The notes below the pieces were generated by a model. It ran no database searches, was not told the origin of the DNA, and worked only from the letters and a program-made list of their open reading frames with translations. Positions 5,970 to 15,129 of a stretch of 24,467 nt of DNA are shown piece after piece. Source of the stretch: a virus; IMG/VR virus record IMGVR_UViG_3300046683_000134, positions 1 to 24,467 of that record; one strand, written 5' to 3'. The first letter of the stretch is position 1; every line of letters starts with the position of its first letter. A program made the position numbers and the translations under genes.

Positions 5970-8684
5970 ATGGCAACCCTCCAACCGGGCGAGAAGGCGC
6001 GCATGTATGCCCTCGGCAAGATCGCCCGCGGCGGCGCGACGCGCGGCGGCTACGTGAGCGCCCGCGCCTTTATCGCGATCGACGGGGTGCATGTGGGGTT
6101 TGGTGGGACGCCGGGCGCCGGGCACGTCGGGACGATCATCACCTCGCTGTCGATTACGGACACGCTGAACGAGGCCGCGAACACGGCGCAATTTCGGATC
6201 AATGGGATGGTTCCCGCGGCCGGCGCCGAGATCAAGATCACCCTCGGGAGTAAGAACGCGACCGGCGCCCTGTTCGCCGGGTTTGCGCTGCACGTGCAAC
6301 AGGGCTACGCCGCCGACAAGCCGGCCAATATCAACGCCGACGTCTCGGCCGTCGATTACACCTGGCTCTTAGGCTTTACGAAAGTGACGAAGGCGTACCG
6401 GAACCAATCGGCGAGCGCGATCGCCGCCGACCTCGTCGCGACGTATGCCGCGGCGAACGGGTTCACGACGCACAACGTCGCGGCGGGCCTCCCGACGCTC
6501 ACCGAGATCACCTATACGAACGAGGAGCTCGATCAGGCCCTGACGCGCCTGGCGCAACGGATCGGCGGGTACTGGTATGTCGATTATCAAAAGGACGTCC
6601 ATGTTTTTCTCAACGAAACGCTGAACGGCGCGCCCGAGGTGCTGACGCCGGCGCACAAATCCCTCGCCGACGTCCGCAAAACCGCCGACCGGACGCAAGT
6701 ACTGACCCGCGTGTACGTCGAGGGCCGGGGCTCGAATATCCTCGGCGCCGTCGCGGCCGGCGACACGATGATCCCGATCGAGGCCGTCGATATGTTCGAG
6801 GCGGCGGCCGACGTGTTCGCGAAAGTGTCGCCGCACGGATCCGAGGGCGCGGCCGAGTGGGTGAGCTATACCGGCGTGATCCCTGGCGGCGCCGGCTCGC
6901 TCGTCGGGCCCGGCGTCGGGCCGCCAGGCGCGCCGACTGTGGGCAGGGCCGCGGGCGCGGGCCTCAGCGTCGGCCGGTATCAGTACGCCTACACCGACGT
7001 CACGCCGAGCGGCGAAACCCTGCCGAGCCCGATCGCGGCGATCGACGTCGGATCGCCCGTGGCGCCGCCGCCGACCGCGCCGGGCGCGACACCGCAACCC
7101 GCGACGAGCGGCGTCGACCTCGGGACGCACATCTACAGTTACACGTACGTGACCGGCGCCGGCGGCGAAACGACGCCGGCCCTGCAAGCAACGACAGTGA
7201 ACACGCAAGCGCCGCTCACGCCGACGGGCGGGATCGATCATGTGGCGGCCCATAGCGGGGGATCGCTCGTGGCTGGCGCGTATGCGTACCGCGTGACCTA
7301 TATCGGCACGGCGCCAGGGAGCGGCCAGAGCACCGCCGCGCCGTATGGCGGCGCGATCACCCTCGCCGGGCCGAATCAATCCAACCAGCTCTTTATCGGC
7401 GGCACACCGCAGACCGTGGTACCGGCTGGCGTGACGCGCGTGATCGTATACGGATCGAATATCAATGCGACCAGCGGGCCGTTTTTCGGCCTCGGCGACG
7501 CGAGTAAAAACGCCGACGGTACGTGGACGTTTATCGACCAATTTTTACGCAATCCCGGCGGCCTCGGCGGCGCGCCGCTCCCGACGACGAACGCCGCGCT
7601 CGCCTGGCTCGCCCAAGTGCACGTCACGACGCCCGCGAGCCCGGATCCCGTCGTCACCGGCGCCAAGATTTACCGAACGCGCCTCGATGGCACCTGGCAC
7701 CTCGTCGCCTCGGTCACTGGCCCGCAAGGCGCGATCGCGTACGACGACGTGATCCCGGATGCGAGTCTCGGCGCGGCGCCGCCGACCGTCGATAGCTCGG
7801 CCGGCGGGTACCGCGCCGTCGCGCTCTCGAATATTGCCCCGGGACCTGGCGCGACGACGGACCGGAAGTTATACCGCACGGCCGTGAACGGGACGCAATT
7901 GCGATTACTCGCGGCCTTTGGCAATAACACCGTGAGTACGGTCACGGATATCAACCCGGATACCGCGCTCGGCGTGAACGCGCCGACGAGCGATACCTCG
8001 GGCCTGCAACAAATCGCCGGACAAGTACCGGCCGGCTCGGCGGCGATCGTCGTCGCGAACCTGGGCCCGTTCGAGAGCGGCGGCGGGTGGGCGGTGATCG
8101 GCAACGGTGAACAGGTGATCCGGTACGCCGGCAAAACCGGGAACACGCTCAGCGGGATCCCGGCCGTCGGGATCGGCGCGATCGTCGCGGCGATCGCCTA
8201 CAACTCGACGATCACGGCCGCGCCGATGTTGACCGGGATCCCGGCGAGCGGCGCCTATGCGATCGTCGAGGATCTCAACCCGGGCGACGAGATCAACCTC
8301 GTCGTGAAACGCGAGGACGCCGCCCGGCAGACGGCGCTCGCGGCGATGATCAAGACCGGGCCGGGCTGGCGCGAGGAGTGGATCCAAGATCGCCGGCTGT
8401 CGATCGCCGAGGCGCGCGCCCGCGGCGACGCGACGCTCGCGCTGCGCCCGCTCGAGGACGTCACGATCACGTATACCTGTCGGGATCTGCGGACGGCCTC
8501 GGGCAAGTCGATCACCGTGAACCTCCCGGCGCCGACGAACCTGAGCGGGACATTCAAAATTCAATCGGTGACGATCAGCAATTTTCGGCCGTACCCGACG
8601 CAGTACCCGACGTTCAGCGTGACGGCCTCGAGCTCGATGTTCTCGTTCGAGGACTGGCTGAGACAAATGCAAACGAAGGTATAA
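5970..8684 (+). CDS. Tail hub / tail-associated protein with inserted repeat region
   Basis: A 904-residue protein following the tape measure. Residues about 20-300 resemble the gp27-like siphophage hub (AFIAIDGVHVGFGG start, LTRLAQRIGGYWYVDY, a VHVFLNETL strand), and the last 130 or so (DEINLVVKREDAARQTALAA, TYTCRDLRTASGKSITV, GTFKIQSVTI) resemble the hub's final domain. Between them, about residues 315-720, lie several Ig/fibronectin-like repeats with GRYQYAYTDVTPSGETLPSP, THIYSYTYVTGAGGETTP, GAYAYRVTYIG and two KIYRT or KLYRT units. The insert probably projects outward to touch the host surface. Start ATG 5970 directly follows the tape-measure stop. Confidence 0.8.
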   Translation: MATLQPGEKARMYALGKIARGGATRGGYVSARAFIAIDGVHVGFGGTPGAGHVGTIITSLSITDTLNEAANTAQFRINGMVPAAGAEIKITLGSKNATGALFAGFALHVQQGYAADKPANINADVSAVDYTWLLGFTKVTKAYRNQSASAIAADLVATYAAANGFTTHNVAAGLPTLTEITYTNEELDQALTRLAQRIGGYWYVDYQKDVHVFLNETLNGAPEVLTPAHKSLADVRKTADRTQVLTRVYVEGRGSNILGAVAAGDTMIPIEAVDMFEAAADVFAKVSPHGSEGAAEWVSYTGVIPGGAGSLVGPGVGPPGAPTVGRAAGAGLSVGRYQYAYTDVTPSGETLPSPIAAIDVGSPVAPPPTAPGATPQPATSGVDLGTHIYSYTYVTGAGGETTPALQATTVNTQAPLTPTGGIDHVAAHSGGSLVAGAYAYRVTYIGTAPGSGQSTAAPYGGAITLAGPNQSNQLFIGGTPQTVVPAGVTRVIVYGSNINATSGPFFGLGDASKNADGTWTFIDQFLRNPGGLGGAPLPTTNAALAWLAQVHVTTPASPDPVVTGAKIYRTRLDGTWHLVASVTGPQGAIAYDDVIPDASLGAAPPTVDSSAGGYRAVALSNIAPGPGATTDRKLYRTAVNGTQLRLLAAFGNNTVSTVTDINPDTALGVNAPTSDTSGLQQIAGQVPAGSAAIVVANLGPFESGGGWAVIGNGEQVIRYAGKTGNTLSGIPAVGIGAIVAAIAYNSTITAAPMLTGIPASGAYAIVEDLNPGDEINLVVKREDAARQTALAAMIKTGPGWREEWIQDRRLSIAEARARGDATLALRPLEDVTITYTCRDLRTASGKSITVNLPAPTNLSGTFKIQSVTISNFRPYPTQYPTFSVTASSSMFSFEDWLRQMQTKV

Positions 8685-9502: not shown

Positions 9503-9640
9503 ATGGTGACGCTCAAGATCGGGCTGATGATCGCCGCGCTACTGCTCGAGGTGTTCGCCGCGCTCGGCGTCCCGTCGCCGCGGCTGAACCTGATCGCCGC
9601 GGGTTTAGCCTGTTATCTCGCCGCGATCATCATCGCGTAA
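9503..9640 (+). CDS. Small two-helix membrane protein (holin candidate)
   Basis: A 45-residue protein with a strong ribosome binding site, AAGGAGG at 9491-9497. Two hydrophobic helices, about residues 5-22 (KIGLMIAALLLEVFAAL) and 28-44 (LNLIAAGLACYLAAIIIA), are separated by a short GVPSPR turn. The layout resembles a small holin, but the same turn also occurs in tiny membrane proteins of unknown function. No endolysin was found beside it. It is too short for the usual ORF cut-off but is well supported by its RBS and the operon position. Confidence 0.65.
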   Translation: MVTLKIGLMIAALLLEVFAALGVPSPRLNLIAAGLACYLAAIIIA

Positions 9641-9660
9641 GGGCGCCCGGGCGCGCGAGG

Positions 9661-9771
9661 ATGCCCCAGGCGCGGCGATCGCCCTGGCGCCTGCGCCTCA
9701 CCCTCATCGCGCTCGTGCTGCTCGAGCTCGGCGTCGGGCTGTTCGTGCTGTGGTGGGGGAGTGGACGCTGA
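9661..9771 (+). CDS. Tiny single-helix membrane protein overlapping the tRNA
   Basis: A 36-residue ORF, the last on the late strand. A basic N-terminus (PQARRSPWRLR) precedes one strong hydrophobic helix (LTLIALVLLELGVGLFVLWW), giving an N-in/C-out prediction. Its last ten bases lie antisense within the tRNA 3' end. A weak GAGG lies very close to the ATG. It could be a lysis accessory protein, or the frame may be open by chance; the membrane topology is the only support. Confidence 0.45.
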   Translation: MPQARRSPWRLRLTLIALVLLELGVGLFVLWWGSGR

Positions 9772-9835
9772 CGGACTCGAACCGCCGACCTCCTCGGTGT
9801 GAACGAGGCGCTCTAACCAACTGAGCTAAGCGTCC
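9762..9835 (-). tRNA. tRNA-Val (CAC)
   Basis: A complete 74-nt cloverleaf reads on the minus strand. The acceptor is GGACGCT paired with AGCGTCC, followed by discriminator A. The D-arm is GCTC/GAGC. The anticodon stem is CCTCG/CGAGG with loop TTCACAC, giving anticodon CAC (valine). The T-arm is GGCGG/CCGTC around TTCGAGT, with one G-T pair. The 3' CCA is not encoded. It may be a functional phage tRNA or a host-derived attachment sequence, since it lies on the integrase side of the genome. Its T-arm contains the same GGTTCGAG octamer repeated in the neighbouring block. Confidence 0.93.
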
Positions 9836-9841
9836 AAATTC

Positions 9842-9858
9842 TGCATTTGCAAAATGCA
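9842..9858. repeat. Short hairpin upstream of tRNA
   Basis: TGCATTT and AAATGCA form a perfect 7-bp stem around a 3-base GCA. It lies just 5' of the tRNA on the tRNA's own strand, so it could be a protein-binding site near its promoter. No function is established. Confidence 0.5.
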
Positions 9859-9870
9859 ACTTACGGGCAT

Positions 9871-9923
9871 CCTCGAACCTGTTCTACGCGGTAAAGCGCT
9901 TTACCAAAAAAGTAGGTTCGAGG
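9871..9923. repeat. Nested inverted repeat
   Basis: CCTCGAACCT at 9871-9880 and AGGTTCGAGG at 9914-9923 are a perfect 10-bp inverted pair. They enclose, almost concentrically, the perfect 16-bp palindrome GGTAAAGCGCTTTACC at 9890-9905. The outer arms contain the octamer that recurs across the block. The symmetric layout suggests binding of a dimer or tetramer, such as a recombinase or initiator. Confidence 0.7.
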
Positions 9924-10016
9924 ACGGTTCGAGCAACCTGCAACTACCTGCGCAACCTACCTTTCCGGCTATGGCTTCGAGCGTGTGAAAAGAGACTAAC
10001 GCCGGCGCTCAACCCA

Positions 10017-10114
10017 CAAAAACACTCAGTAAATCAGGCGATTTCGGCACGTTTCGGCCTGTTTTACTCGAACCACTTACCAGAAAATATATTGAAATAT
10101 ATTGAGTGTTTTTG
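10017..10114. repeat. 12-bp inverted repeat enclosing an AT-rich tandem repeat
   Basis: CAAAAACACTCA (10017-10028) is exactly complementary to TGAGTGTTTTTG (10103-10114). Inside the right end, AAATATATTG is repeated in perfect tandem (10085-10094 and 10095-10104), the most AT-rich spot seen in this GC-rich genome. It could be a duplex-unwinding element, or an IHF-bendable segment of attP. Confidence 0.7.
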
Positions 10115-10146
10115 AAGGTGTTTTCCTCGAACCAACGGGGAGTGGT

Positions 10147-10232
10147 TCGAGGGGTAAGAGGCCACAGGCCGCCGGAGGGATCGCGACGCTCGAACCATGG
10201 GGCGTCGGCTCGAGGGGTAAGAGGCCATAGGC
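10147..10232. repeat. 23-bp direct repeats, 63 bp apart
   Basis: The 23-bp units at 10147-10169 and 10210-10232 differ at one base; each begins TCGAGGGGTAAGAGGCCA. Part of the same unit (GAGGCCATAGG) recurs at 10258-10268. A spacing of 63 bp is six helical turns, which places copies on the same DNA face. Confidence 0.75.
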
Positions 10233-10274
10233 GATCGGACGGATGCGGCGCGCGCACGAGGCCATAGGTTCGAG

Positions 10275-10508
10275 TTAATCGGTTCGCTCGGTGTGCTGGC
10301 GGAGTCGCTGCTCGAGCTCGAGCTCGAACGCCGTCGGCGGGCCGATGATGATCAGGGCGTAACTTGTGGGATCTGGCTCGTACCGTTTCCAGCCATCGAC
10401 GGGCTCGACCTCGATCGCCCGTCGATACCACGACACCCGCACGTCCTCGCTACGCTCGAGAAGCGCCGTGAAGGCCTCGATCAGTTTGCGCTTTTCTTCG
10501 GACGTCAT
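10275..10508 (-). CDS. Unknown 77-residue protein downstream of integrase
   Basis: The ATG at 10508 overlaps the integrase stop by 4 bases, so the two genes are co-transcribed and translationally coupled. The protein begins with a charged helix (EEKRKLIEAFTALLERSED), followed by RVSWYRRAIEVEPVDGW, a short YALIIIGPP strand and a final helix FELELEQRLRQHTERTD. No family was recognised. Its position next to the presumptive attP and behind the integrase makes a recombination accessory role possible, but it lacks the clear winged-helix of an excisionase. The longer start at 10574 would sit inside the integrase. Confidence 0.7.
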   Translation of the reverse strand: MTSEEKRKLIEAFTALLERSEDVRVSWYRRAIEVEPVDGWKRYEPDPTSYALIIIGPPTAFELELEQRLRQHTERTD

Positions 10509-11851
10509 GACCGGCGAACGATCTTGAGCGGCGTCGGCGGCGTGAGGGGCTCGGCCAGGTGACGATCGAGCCAAGCCGTAAGCGCCTCGTTCGCCTCGCG
10601 CAGCGTCGGATCGACGGCCGAGGCGGTATAGATCCGCGACGTGCGCGCCGACCGATGATCGAGCGCCCGGATGACGGCCGGATTGATTTGCAGCTGGCCG
10701 CGCCGATCGAACAGGCCATTCGTCGCCTGCGCCAACGCGGACGCGAGCGAGTGCTTCAGGTGGTACAGCGTCATCGTCGAGAGATCGACCGGGACGCCGG
10801 CGGCGCCGAGCGAGGCCTGCGCCCGAGCCGCCGCGCCCTTGAATTGCTTATTGAGGCCCGAGACCGAAAACTTACCCCAGGCGGCCGGCGTCGCGGCGAA
10901 CGCCCGCATGGCGTCGACGCCGTACGGCGTGAGCGGGATCGTTTCGGGCGCCGGGATCACCTTCGCCCGGCCCTTAAAGCGCGGCGGTTTGGTGAGGGTA
11001 ATGACGCCGGCGGCCATCTCCTCGCGCGTCGCGTCGGGGTCGTCATGAAACGCCGTCTCCGGTTTCAACAGGCTGAGTTGTTTCGGCGTGATGTTCACCC
11101 AGGCGAGGACCGCGAGCCGGAGCTCGCCGTGGCGCGACTGCTTACCGAACGGCCGGCGCACCGACGCGAGCACCTCGCGCACGAGGCGCATATCCTGGCC
11201 GGATAACTTGGCGCCGGCCCGGGCGCGCGTCTCGATGAGGGCGATCGGATTGCGCGGCGCCTGCGGATCGTTGCGGTTCAGGATCCGAAACAGCTGATAG
11301 AGCGCCTGGCGGTAGTGGTTCGACGTCGTACCGAACTCGGTCGGATCGGTATCGCGATCCGTCGGCGCGAACGCCTCCTCGAGCACCTTGCGGATCCGAT
11401 CGATCACCTCGGCCCGGATCGAGACGGATTTACCCACGCGCACGAACGCGATCTCACCGAGGGTCCGACCGACGTCCTGATCGCGCGCCGCCTTGTATTG
11501 CGCCGGCGTCACGACGGGCGCCGTCGGCGCAGACGGTTGGGCCATCCAGAAGGCCAGCTGAAACGTGCGGACCTTTTTTGTCGCCGGCGAGAGGTTCGCG
11601 ACCTCGAGGTACCGTTCGACGCCCGCGGCCAGCGTCCCGGCCGTCGGCGTCGGATCTTTCGCGCGCTCGCGCTCGAGAGCGGCGCGCGTCGTCGTCACCC
11701 ATCGCACCATCGCGGCGTCGTCGCGTTTCTTCCAGGATCTCGAATCACGCAAGGCGCCCGGCCCTGAGCCGACCTTCACCTTGCCCTCATAGCCGTACGA
11801 GGTTTTGTAAATGTTCGCCGGGAGGGGTAACTCAACTGTAAGCGATTTCAT
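10505..11851 (-). CDS. Tyrosine recombinase / integrase, divergent catalytic residues
   Basis: A 448-residue integrase that would insert the phage genome into the host chromosome. The N-terminal part contains arm- and core-binding-like segments, for example GTLAAGVERYLEVANLSPAT. The C-terminal catalytic domain ends with LDHRSARTSRIY, giving the box II His399 and nucleophile Tyr408. The usual HxxR is read as YHLK, with Tyr363 and Lys366. The first catalytic Arg is apparently replaced: the box I segment around 246-265 (VNITPKQLSLLK) shows Thr255 at that place. Lys for the box II Arg occurs in other integrases; loss of the box I Arg is less usual. It lies on the minus strand beside tRNA-Val and the repeat block. 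Confidence 0.85.
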   Translation of the reverse strand: MKSLTVELPLPANIYKTSYGYEGKVKVGSGPGALRDSRSWKKRDDAAMVRWVTTTRAALERERAKDPTPTAGTLAAGVERYLEVANLSPATKKVRTFQLAFWMAQPSAPTAPVVTPAQYKAARDQDVGRTLGEIAFVRVGKSVSIRAEVIDRIRKVLEEAFAPTDRDTDPTEFGTTSNHYRQALYQLFRILNRNDPQAPRNPIALIETRARAGAKLSGQDMRLVREVLASVRRPFGKQSRHGELRLAVLAWVNITPKQLSLLKPETAFHDDPDATREEMAAGVITLTKPPRFKGRAKVIPAPETIPLTPYGVDAMRAFAATPAAWGKFSVSGLNKQFKGAAARAQASLGAAGVPVDLSTMTLYHLKHSLASALAQATNGLFDRRGQLQINPAVIRALDHRSARTSRIYTASAVDPTLREANEALTAWLDRHLAEPLTPPTPLKIVRRS

Positions 11852-12107: not shown

Positions 12108-12402
12108 GCGGGAGGGCGCGCACCTCCTCGATGAGGCGCGCCTCGAACGGATCGCTCGGCAGGTTCAGCAACCCCACCAGGGTAAAGCCGAACATCTGGG
12201 CCATGCGGTCGAGCGTCGTGAGATCGGCGTCGAATTCGCCCTTCAGGTAGCGACTCATCCAGGCCTGCGTACGGCCGATCCGTTCGCCGAGCTGCGCCTG
12301 CGTGACGCCGGTCGTCTGGATCCAGGAGCGGATCCGCTCGCGGGCCTGCTGATCAAGGGTCTGGGGCACGGGTACCAGAATCGGTGCATCAGGCATCAAC
12401 AT
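12025..12402 (-). CDS. CI-like HTH_XRE repressor
   Basis: A 125-residue DNA-binding protein, read divergently from the Cro-like gene at 12482. The N-terminal part has an XRE helix-turn-helix at about residues 30-60: GVTQAQLGERIGRTQAWMSR, then YLKGEFDADLTTLDRMAQMF. A C-terminal helix (ALPPKTRQTLLEMLTSLRQ) may dimerise. No LexA-like protease domain is present, so induction must differ from lambda CI. ATG 12402 is chosen because a TATACT -10 ends seven bases before it and no ribosome binding site is visible; a second ATG lies at 12396. The longer frame to 12564 would run through the operator and the opposing promoter. Confidence 0.85.
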   Translation of the reverse strand: MLMPDAPILVPVPQTLDQQARERIRSWIQTTGVTQAQLGERIGRTQAWMSRYLKGEFDADLTTLDRMAQMFGFTLVGLLNLPSDPFEARLIEEVRALPPKTRQTLLEMLTSLRQTHQRKRRPPRP

Positions 12403-12408
12403 GCAAGC

Positions 12409-12414
12409 AGTATA
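12409..12414 (-). promoter_or_regulatory. Leftward repressor promoter (-10 element)
   Basis: TATACT reads on the minus strand from 12414 to 12409, with no good -35 at 16-18 bp. The predicted start point is near the repressor ATG at 12402, so the transcript would be leaderless. The element overlaps the operator at 12411-12427, which allows autoregulation. A weak -35 is typical of activator-dependent promoters such as lambda PRM. Confidence 0.55.
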
Positions 12415-12427
12415 CACGTTCTGTATA
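12411..12427. promoter_or_regulatory. Repressor operator
   Basis: TATACA and TGTATA form a perfect 6-bp inverted repeat around CGTTC, a 17-bp site as expected for an HTH_XRE dimer. It covers the leftward -10. A further TGTATA half-site at 12464-12469 covers the rightward -10, so the same protein could block both promoters. Confidence 0.75.
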
Positions 12428-12441
12428 TTCCAGCCTAGCAG

Positions 12442-12471
12442 TTGACACGGCCGCGCCCGAAAGTGTATATC
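12442..12471 (+). promoter_or_regulatory. Rightward early promoter (PR-like)
   Basis: A consensus -35, TTGACA at 12442-12447, is followed by GTATAT at 12465 (17-bp spacer) or TATATC at 12466 (18-bp spacer). The transcript should start near 12477-12479, only 3-5 bases before ATG 12482. It drives the overlapping early genes. The -10 contains a TGTATA operator half-site. Confidence 0.8.
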
Positions 12472-12481
12472 CATATTCGTT

Positions 12482-12742
12482 ATGAAACGCCGTCGCCTGC
12501 CGGCCAAGAATCCGCACCCGAAATACCCCAACCTTCGCGCGTACATGCAAATGACCGGCGACACCCAGGAGGCGATCGCCGCCGAGCTCGGGATTAGTCA
12601 GGCGCATATCTCGCGGATTCTGGCGGGGAAGGTGGTACCCCGCGCCGAGCTCGCGATCCGCCTGGCCGCCTACGCCGATATTCCCGTCGACTCGTTCACC
12701 TGGGCCGCGGCGCGCCAGAACCAGAAAGGCGCCGTCGCGTGA
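12482..12742 (+). CDS. Cro-like HTH_XRE regulator
   Basis: An 86-residue protein, first gene of the rightward operon. A basic start (MKRRRLPAKNPHPKYPNLRA) is followed by an XRE-type helix-turn-helix, about residues 30-55: TQEAIAAELGISQAHISRIL, then AGKVVPRAELAIRLAAY. Size and the position divergent from a CI-like repressor indicate a Cro or early regulator role at the same operators. The presumptive promoter leaves a leader of only 3-5 bases, so translation may not need a Shine-Dalgarno. Its stop overlaps the following GTG by 4 bases. Confidence 0.85.
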   Translation: MKRRRLPAKNPHPKYPNLRAYMQMTGDTQEAIAAELGISQAHISRILAGKVVPRAELAIRLAAYADIPVDSFTWAAARQNQKGAVA

Positions 12743-13020
12743 TCCCTGAGCCGGCCGTCGACGACGCCCTCGAGGCCCGCCGCCAGGAGGCCCTCGCCCG
12801 CGTCGACCGCGGCGAGCTCCTCACGCCCGACGAAATGGCCGCGATCTTTCGGATGAGCCGGCCGACGTTCAATACCCACCTCGGCGCCGGCGAATTCGAC
12901 GCCTTTCGGGTAACGCCCCAAATCGGGCGCCCGTTGTTCTCGGGCGTGATCGTCCGCAAGTACCTCGCGGGCGAGCCGCTCTATGAGCCCACCTTCGGGC
13001 GCAAGCGGGGCGCGCGATGA
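12739..13020 (+). CDS. HTH DNA-binding protein (excisionase-like)
   Basis: A 93-residue protein with GTG start overlapping the Cro-like stop by 4 bases. Residues about 25-60 (GELLTPDEMAAIFRMSRPTF then NTHLGAGEFDAFRV) resemble the HTH_17/excisionase type, in which a helix-turn-helix is followed by a short wing and a G-[RK]-P-LF strand (QIGRPLFSGVIVRKYL). It could act as Xis, directing excision at the att region, or as an early regulator. The fold is well supported; the function is inference. It overlaps the next ATG by 4 bases. Confidence 0.7.
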   Translation: MIPEPAVDDALEARRQEALARVDRGELLTPDEMAAIFRMSRPTFNTHLGAGEFDAFRVTPQIGRPLFSGVIVRKYLAGEPLYEPTFGRKRGAR

Positions 13021-14047: not shown

Positions 14048-14227
14048 GTGCCCGAGAAACACTGGTACCCGCCGGCCGAAACGCATTTCGTCGATTGGGA
14101 CGTCCGCGGCAAACGGTTACGCCGCGCGATTTGCGGGCGCCTGATTTCGGTGAGCGATGAGTCCGTGCGGCCGACGTGCGGCGACTGTCTGCGGATCCTG
14201 CGCGCGCGCCTCGAGGATCAACCGTGA
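14048..14227 (+). CDS. Small zinc-ribbon-like protein
   Basis: A 59-residue protein read from GTG 14048 with AGGTG upstream. It contains CGRLI and CGDCL elements (Cys-x22-Cys-x2-Cys) and an upstream THFVDWD histidine, giving a potential zinc site. This arrangement of a short HF.D segment and CxxC is frequent among tiny phage proteins. It overlaps the methyltransferase GTG by 4 bases. No function is claimed. Confidence 0.6.
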
Positions 14228-15129
14228 CGCGCGCTCTTACGAAACGGACGGTCGATCGCTCGCTCTCGAAATACGAGCCCGCGAAAGGCGCGAGGCGGAT
14301 CGCCGGCGCCGAAGCGGCCATGAAGCATTACGCGCGCGCGAAGGACGCGACGAACCTCGCCCGCGCGATCCGAGAAAAGCTCGAGGCGCAAGCCGAGTTT
14401 GTGTACTGGTGGGATAGCCGCCTAAAAAACAAGGCCGGGCGACCGAAAGAATCGATAACTGATCGGTTATCGATTACCAAAGACGCGAAGCTCGCCGAGC
14501 GACTCGGTACGAGCCTCATGCGGATCTCGCGCTGGCGCAAAAAGCTGAACGATCCGCGCGCGTTTGAAAACACGTTCGAGGCCTTGCGCGCGAAGTATCC
14601 GAAGCTGGTCGAGTTTGAGACGACCGCGCACGTCGGGCAGAACACCGGCGAGAACGACTGGTACACGCCGGCCGAGTACGTCGACGCTGCGCGCGACGTG
14701 ATGGGCGGGATCGATCTCGATCCGGCCTCTAATCCCGTCGCGAACGAAGTGGTCAAAGCGACGCGCATTTTTACGCCTGCCGACGACGGCCTCAAGCAGG
14801 CGTGGTTTGGGCGCGTCTGGATGAATCCGCCGTACGCGCAACCGCTGGTCACGCAATTCTGCGAGCTGCTCGCCGAGAGCGTCCGCGCCGGGATGGTGAC
14901 GAGCGCGATCGTGCTCGTGAACAACGCGACCGAAACGCAGTGGTTTCGATCGCTGGCGGACGTCGCCGCGGCGATCTGTTTTCCCTCTGGGCGCGTCCGG
15001 TTCTGGCACCCGGATCGCGAGAGCGCGACGCCTTTGCAGGGCCAGGCCGTGCTCTATTTCGGCCCGACCGTGCAGGCCTTCGCGGATCGGTTTCGATCGT
15101 TTGGATTCGTCGTTGAGGTGCTCAGGTGA
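14224..15129 (+). CDS. DNA N6-adenine methyltransferase (phage Dam type), with N-terminal HTH
   Basis: A 301-residue protein. Residues about 140-301 match the phage Dam family (PF05869): NDWYTP at 144-149, a DLDPAS motif at 164-169, the catalytic NPPY at 201-204, then FPSGRVRFW and GQAVLYFG strands. It transfers a methyl group from S-adenosylmethionine to adenine, probably in GATC, the usual target of this family. GATC is unusually frequent in the genome. Residues 1-130 are an additional region with a helix-turn-helix-like [18 protein letters not shown] at about 91-108. GTG 14224 is coupled to the preceding gene. Methylation could protect from host nucleases or affect regulation. Confidence 0.88.

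Follow-up and report, generated by a model that had tools for sequence, protein, structure and literature searches.

Why does a short non-coding block of a phage genome, lying beside a tRNA gene, hold so many copies of one octamer, and what might bind them? The window, by which we mean the whole 24,467-base stretch of DNA analysed here, is an IMG/VR virus record with a terminase, a capsid/protease gene and CI/Cro-like regulators; a Dam-type adenine methyltransferase domain (PF05869) is found at 14176-15129. GGTTCGAG occurs in it nine times, always within 9776-10274: eight copies fall in the non-coding interval 9872-10274, and the only copy outside this array is in the T-arm of tRNA-Val, at 9776. 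Four of the eight are on the plus strand (9915, 9926, 10144, 10267) and four on the minus strand (9872, 10067, 10126, 10189), with one-mismatch copies at 9974 (GCTTCGAG) and 10207 (GGCTCGAG), exactly as counted in the initial annotation, which also described the block correctly as non-coding: it runs from 9836 to 10274, bounded on one side by the tRNA (9761-9835) and on the other by the stop of a 77-codon ORF (10275-10508). The frequency assumed there, about one octamer per 30 kb on both strands, was somewhat low, an order-2 Markov model giving 2.06 per window on both strands, and in 500 simulations under such a model no 500-bp stretch contained more than 3 copies. When the whole window is counted no comparable density is seen elsewhere, and the array is retained in relatives while the flanking sequence diverges, so that the proposal of a repeated site stands on both counts.

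Relatives of the predicted integrase encoded beside the array were found in IMG/VR (L002, 100% identity; L003-L005 and L007, 74-75%; L006, 68%; L026, 51%) and in a later DNA pattern scan (L049/L050, 43%; L048/L051, about 27-30%). The window and each of L002-L007 contain TTCACAC exactly twice, once as a predicted att core and once in the anticodon loop of the tRNA; the two copies are 186 bp apart in the window and exactly 120 bp apart in L003-L007. Measured from the core, the octamers of the window lie at -162, -144, -85, +56 and +67, and also at -285, -207 and +110; those of L003-L007 lie at -161, -143, -83 and +56 (and +67), and L026 keeps the -162 site and has another at +77. The offsets thus agree to within 2 bp where the integrases are 68-75% identical, and the -162 site survives at 51%. 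A lambda-type attP is marked by repeated arm-type sites that flank a core at fixed distances and, read from its sequence, the 9872-10274 array is a putative attP of this type, its P and P' arms lying to either side of a 7-bp core (Table 1). The gene order, attP-int-repressor, resembles that of P2.

Table 1. Coordinates of the features of the putative attP region and its associated genes in the window.
Feature	Position	Strand	Remarks
Complete tRNA-Val(CAC) gene, predicted replacement for disrupted host tRNA	9761..9835	-	5/5 decayed-core records
Putative attP arm-site array	9872..10274	.	Eight exact GGTTCGAG, two one-mismatch copies
Octamer at +110	9872..9879	-	Within extra 66 bp between core and tRNA, only in window/L002
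P'-arm octamer, offset +67	9915..9922	+	+67 in L007; one mismatch in L003-L005
P'-arm octamer, offset +56	9926..9933	+	+56 in L003-L007 (L006: one mismatch); +77 in L026
Putative decayed tRNA-Val 3' half and 3'-flank relic	9938..9982	-	Same length, no indel relative to L026/L049/L048
Putative attP core, predicted 7-bp overlap TTCACAC	9983..9989	-	Anticodon-loop sequence of tRNA-Val(CAC)
P-arm octamer, offset -85	10067..10074	-	-83 in L003-L007
P-arm octamer, offset -144	10126..10133	-	Inverted pair with 10144, 18 bp
P-arm octamer, offset -162	10144..10151	+	-161/-162 in all relatives including L026
Octamer 10189(-) and degenerate partner 10207(+)	10189..10214	.	Second inverted pair, from 63-bp duplication
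tRNA-like element GCACGAGGCCATAGGTTCGAG	10254..10274	+	Anticodon-stem 3' strand, variable loop, T-arm
Predicted integrase, divergent tyrosine recombinase, 448 aa	10505..11851	-	Profile-profile score 51
HTH_17 protein, 93 aa, candidate excisionase/RDF	12739..13020	+	Match below Pfam cut-off

Several other features of the region deserve mention. A 63-bp tandem duplication at 10126-10244, its copies 79% identical, repeats the inverted octamer pair and provides copies additional to those of L003-L007. The P-arm sites enclose an AT-rich tandem AAATATATTG at 10085-10104 that is a possible DNA-bending site, and a palindromic TGCATTTTGCAAATGCAG at 9838-9862 adjoins the tRNA; L026 has a similar palindrome, TGCACTTTCGAAATGCAG, past its P' arm (7920-7942). 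Matches to the inverted-pair pattern in L016, L017, L019 and L020 consist locally of one lone palindrome in each and were taken as chance. No terminators or sigma-70-like promoters were found in 9600-10600.

The initial annotation had also considered iterons, and the proximity of the repeats to the AT-rich stretch at 10085-10104 would suit these or a replication origin. We regard such a function as very improbable: the octamers are of mixed orientation, irregularly spaced at 11-141 bp rather than forming regular direct repeats, and centred on the att core, and the more distant relatives have different repeats at similar offsets. An operator array for the CI- or Cro-like regulators, or a hairpin element acting at the level of RNA, is just as hard to entertain. 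A transcript of the array does fold better than its shuffled counterparts (z = -4.9), as it must do because of the inverted repeats, but the repressor genes are without any octamer nearby, single, unpaired octamers are conserved in position and the array is centred on TTCACAC. The GTATATA-like repeats at 12395-12480, which lie between the genes for these two regulators, are probable operators and are unlike the octamer.

The 448-aa protein is an unusual candidate for the recombinase. Searches of Pfam, NCBIfam, PHROGs and PDB sequences gave no significant match, close relatives were not found among named phages and the PF00589 profile had no match at E<=1 in the G000, L004, L006 and L026 contigs. 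An earlier profile comparison with four integrases also failed to match, whereas one with nine phage integrases gave a clear result, with a score of 51 over 297 colinear columns against 24 or less in 60 column shuffles and 23 non-integrases (19 from P22 and four window proteins). The best Foldseek matches were to tyrosine recombinases, but they lend weak support because the AlphaFold model was poor (pLDDT 42.5) and the matches were at E >= 0.02. H399 and Y408, the last His and the Tyr, are kept; the catalytic motif of PF00589 is otherwise incomplete, with no Arg at arginine I (the TGxR position) in any family member and, at the HxxR position, YHLK in L026 and the window clade, YDLR in L048 and KQLR in L050. 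Arginine II is Arg in L048/L050 and Lys in L026 and the window clade. The lack of canonical arginine I and HxxR in the family means that activity is not assured, and dN/dS values of about 0.28-0.37 against L003 and L006 point to purifying selection. We describe the protein as a divergent relative of tyrosine recombinases and a putative integrase.

Such an integrase would be the natural ligand of the octamers, and the distant relatives are informative here. The octamer is replaced in L051 by CTACCAGACAC at -173, -160, +55 and +68, and in L050 by GGGTCCTA at -205, -150 and -137. Because these phages, whose integrases differ, have repeats of another sequence at similar offsets, the octamers are probably arm-type sites of the integrase, and of the functions first suggested for them this one is now well supported, by the constant spacing of the octamers from the core in both arms and by the similarly placed repeats of the outgroups. 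Some Xis sites may contribute as well, but it is improbable that the octamers, although part of attP, are bound mainly by the HTH_17 protein acting as a recombination directionality factor (RDF). Sites for an RDF commonly lie within attP arms and this protein has been kept, with homologues in the L003, L004, L006 and L026 contigs; however, its homologue in L050 is closer (49%) than that in L026 (41%), yet it is L026 that has the octamers and not L050, whose arm repeats are different, and the flanking of the core on both sides is that of integrase arm sites. The 77-residue protein was rejected as a general octamer binder, being present only in the window and L002.

The core, TTCACAC, and the probable role of the tRNA gene had escaped the initial annotation, and the identity of the core points to the target of integration. 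In L026 it opens a tRNA-Val 3' half, TTCACAC GCACG AGGTC ACACG TTCAAGT CGTGT AGCGCCC ACCA; that of L049/L050 is identical, and L048/L051, L045 and L052 have variants, while to the left of TTCACAC the sequences of all these phages diverge. Since in the integrase relatives L026, L049/L050 and L048/L051 the core passes directly into a full tRNA-Val 3' half with CCA, integration would rebuild the host tRNA gene. L045 and L052 are unrelated phages whose integrases are recognised by a profile of known phage integrases, and because they too carry that core and 3' half, the tRNA-Val anticodon loop appears to be a shared target. The tRNA-Val(CAC) 3' half, from TTCACAC on, occupies 4312-4358 in L045 and 1197-1243 in L052; the site is an integration hot spot.

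In the window clade the corresponding stretch, from core to flank, resembles the tRNA at both ends and matches it only at chance in the middle, and overall similarity is weak (p about 0.002-0.06 in letter shuffles). Its flank reads GTTGCAG in the window, at +46 to +52 from the core, where relatives have TTACAG. We read this stretch as a decayed remnant of the tRNA 3' half with a relic of its flank, though TTACAG could be a functional motif rather than a relic. An attP without a usable tRNA 3' half would, by this reasoning, destroy the host tRNA gene on integration. Hosts were sought among genome contigs by integrase alignment and with the L026 tRNA half allowing a free T-stem; neither search found a host genome or lysogen, hence no attL or attR, and it is from the phage side that we infer attB to be the anticodon loop of the host tRNA-Val(CAC) gene.

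A complete phage tRNA-Val(CAC) gene accompanies the decayed core. It was detected with Rfam in 5/5 decayed-core records searched and in 0/5 records with an intact 3' half, contigs that may be fragments and in which its absence is not proof, and it is the only tRNA in each record. The att core equals the anticodon loop of this tRNA, which lies 186 bp away, on the P' side, and reads in the same direction. We think it probable, at roughly four chances in five, that the array is an attP directed to the anticodon loop of the host tRNA-Val(CAC) gene, that the octamers are the integrase arms and that the phage tRNA replaces the disrupted host tRNA; what is read directly from sequence is the array with its core and geometry, the tRNA gene and, in the relatives, an intact tRNA 3' half. 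The adjacent divergent tyrosine-recombinase-like integrase would bind the GGTTCGAG arm sites around TTCACAC, at about -162, -144 and -85 and extra copies in the P arm and at +56 and +67 in the P' arm, and integration at TTCACAC would split the host gene in its anticodon loop. Because core and tRNA are co-directional, recombination within TTCACAC would bring the P' arm, and with it the phage tRNA, to the junction directly downstream of the promoter and 5' half of the host tRNA, where the phage tRNA is predicted to be expressed by read-through from the host promoter. The phage tRNA would then take over from the destroyed one, in a case of tRNA-dependent lysogeny, and it is indeed of the isotype of the gene presumed to be disrupted. 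In many phages tRNAs serve translation or counter anticodon nucleases (a subject discussed in PMC10865867), and the present tRNA might have been kept for lytic growth or anti-defence and lie beside attP by chance, the host gene being rebuilt or unaffected. Such a coincidence seems to us unlikely, given that the tRNA has the anticodon of the att core, sits at a fixed spacing of 120 bp in L003-L007, co-occurs strictly with the decayed core and is the sole tRNA per record.

The octamer had been recognised at the outset as the T-arm of the adjacent tRNA-Val and, as the exact copy at 9776 bears out, this is so, with a likeness that exceeds one octamer. GCACGAGGCCATAGGTTCGAG matches the tRNA-Val segment of L045 that spans anticodon stem to T-arm at 18/21 positions and the L006 copy does so at 20/21, against 16/21 at most in order-2 shuffles; because GCACGAGGCCATAGGTTCGAG-type sites match so well (18-20/21), the octamer probably either descends from the target gene or mimics it. 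The tRNA-like elements of L003 (7398-7430), L006 (7785-7820) and L026 (7520-7550) follow CGTGC-type inverted repeats with loops of about 7 bases (GTCAATC, TCCTGAC and CTGATAT, respectively) that resemble att cores with other overlaps. The tRNA-like pattern scan also matched L043 and two tRNA-rich contigs, L044 and L046. One may speculate, with little confidence, that the divergent recombinase recognises tRNA-gene DNA, its arm sites copying the T-arm and anticodon stem of the target, and that one clade swapped a self-healing attP for a complete tRNA behind the host promoter; in that event the new phage tRNA would not itself be a target because its anticodon stem (CCTCG/CGAGG) is unlike the core flank.

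Integration that breaks a host tRNA gene, for which a phage tRNA substitutes, was described in 2024 as tRNA-dependent lysogeny in actinophages (PMC10865867). Those actinobacteriophages (Fionnbharth, cluster L and others; PMC10865867) carry tRNA Lys, Ile2 or Leu, whereas the window has tRNA-Val(CAC) and an integrase of another family; in Fionnbharth the tRNA overlaps gene 37 and is served by a strong promoter of its own (PMC10865867), unlike that of the window, which adjoins the P' arm and is collinear with the host gene. The window clade consists of uncultivated soil phages, and its requirement for the tRNA is suggested by analogy. Another reported case, in which a host tRNA is replaced by a phage tRNA of unrelated lineage, is likened to this one by its description only. 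The canonical tRNA-restoring attP of L026, L049/L050 and L048/L051, with P2- or HP1-like gene order, shares with that of the window an anticodon-loop core with arm sites, a related integrase and the same target tRNA; the window differs in having lost, it appears, the tRNA 3' half with which the host gene is rebuilt.

As judged from these sequences, one integrase family now includes two states, restoring and, putatively, tRNA-dependent, directed to the same target. In the integrase tree the sampled tRNA carriers (the window, L003 and L006) form one group with the three restoring lineages outside it; the value of 98/100 refers to the carrier group, and the branches are long and the deeper nodes left unordered. 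The tRNA-dependent state looks derived from the restoring one, the simplest order being a self-restoring attP, then the gain of a cognate tRNA and then decay of the attP half. This order is supported by the retention, in the tRNA-dependent clade, of a decayed tRNA-half remnant of the same length. The discoverers of tRNA-dependent lysogeny (PMC10865867) left open its frequency elsewhere and whether it came before or after the canonical systems that restore the tRNA, and a restoring-first order is one of the alternatives that they allowed. The presence of both states in one family makes the evolutionary order testable, and a decayed core with a cognate tRNA beside attP provides a signature by which more cases may be found in metagenomes. 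It may also help to explain why the tRNA complement of some phages is a single gene.
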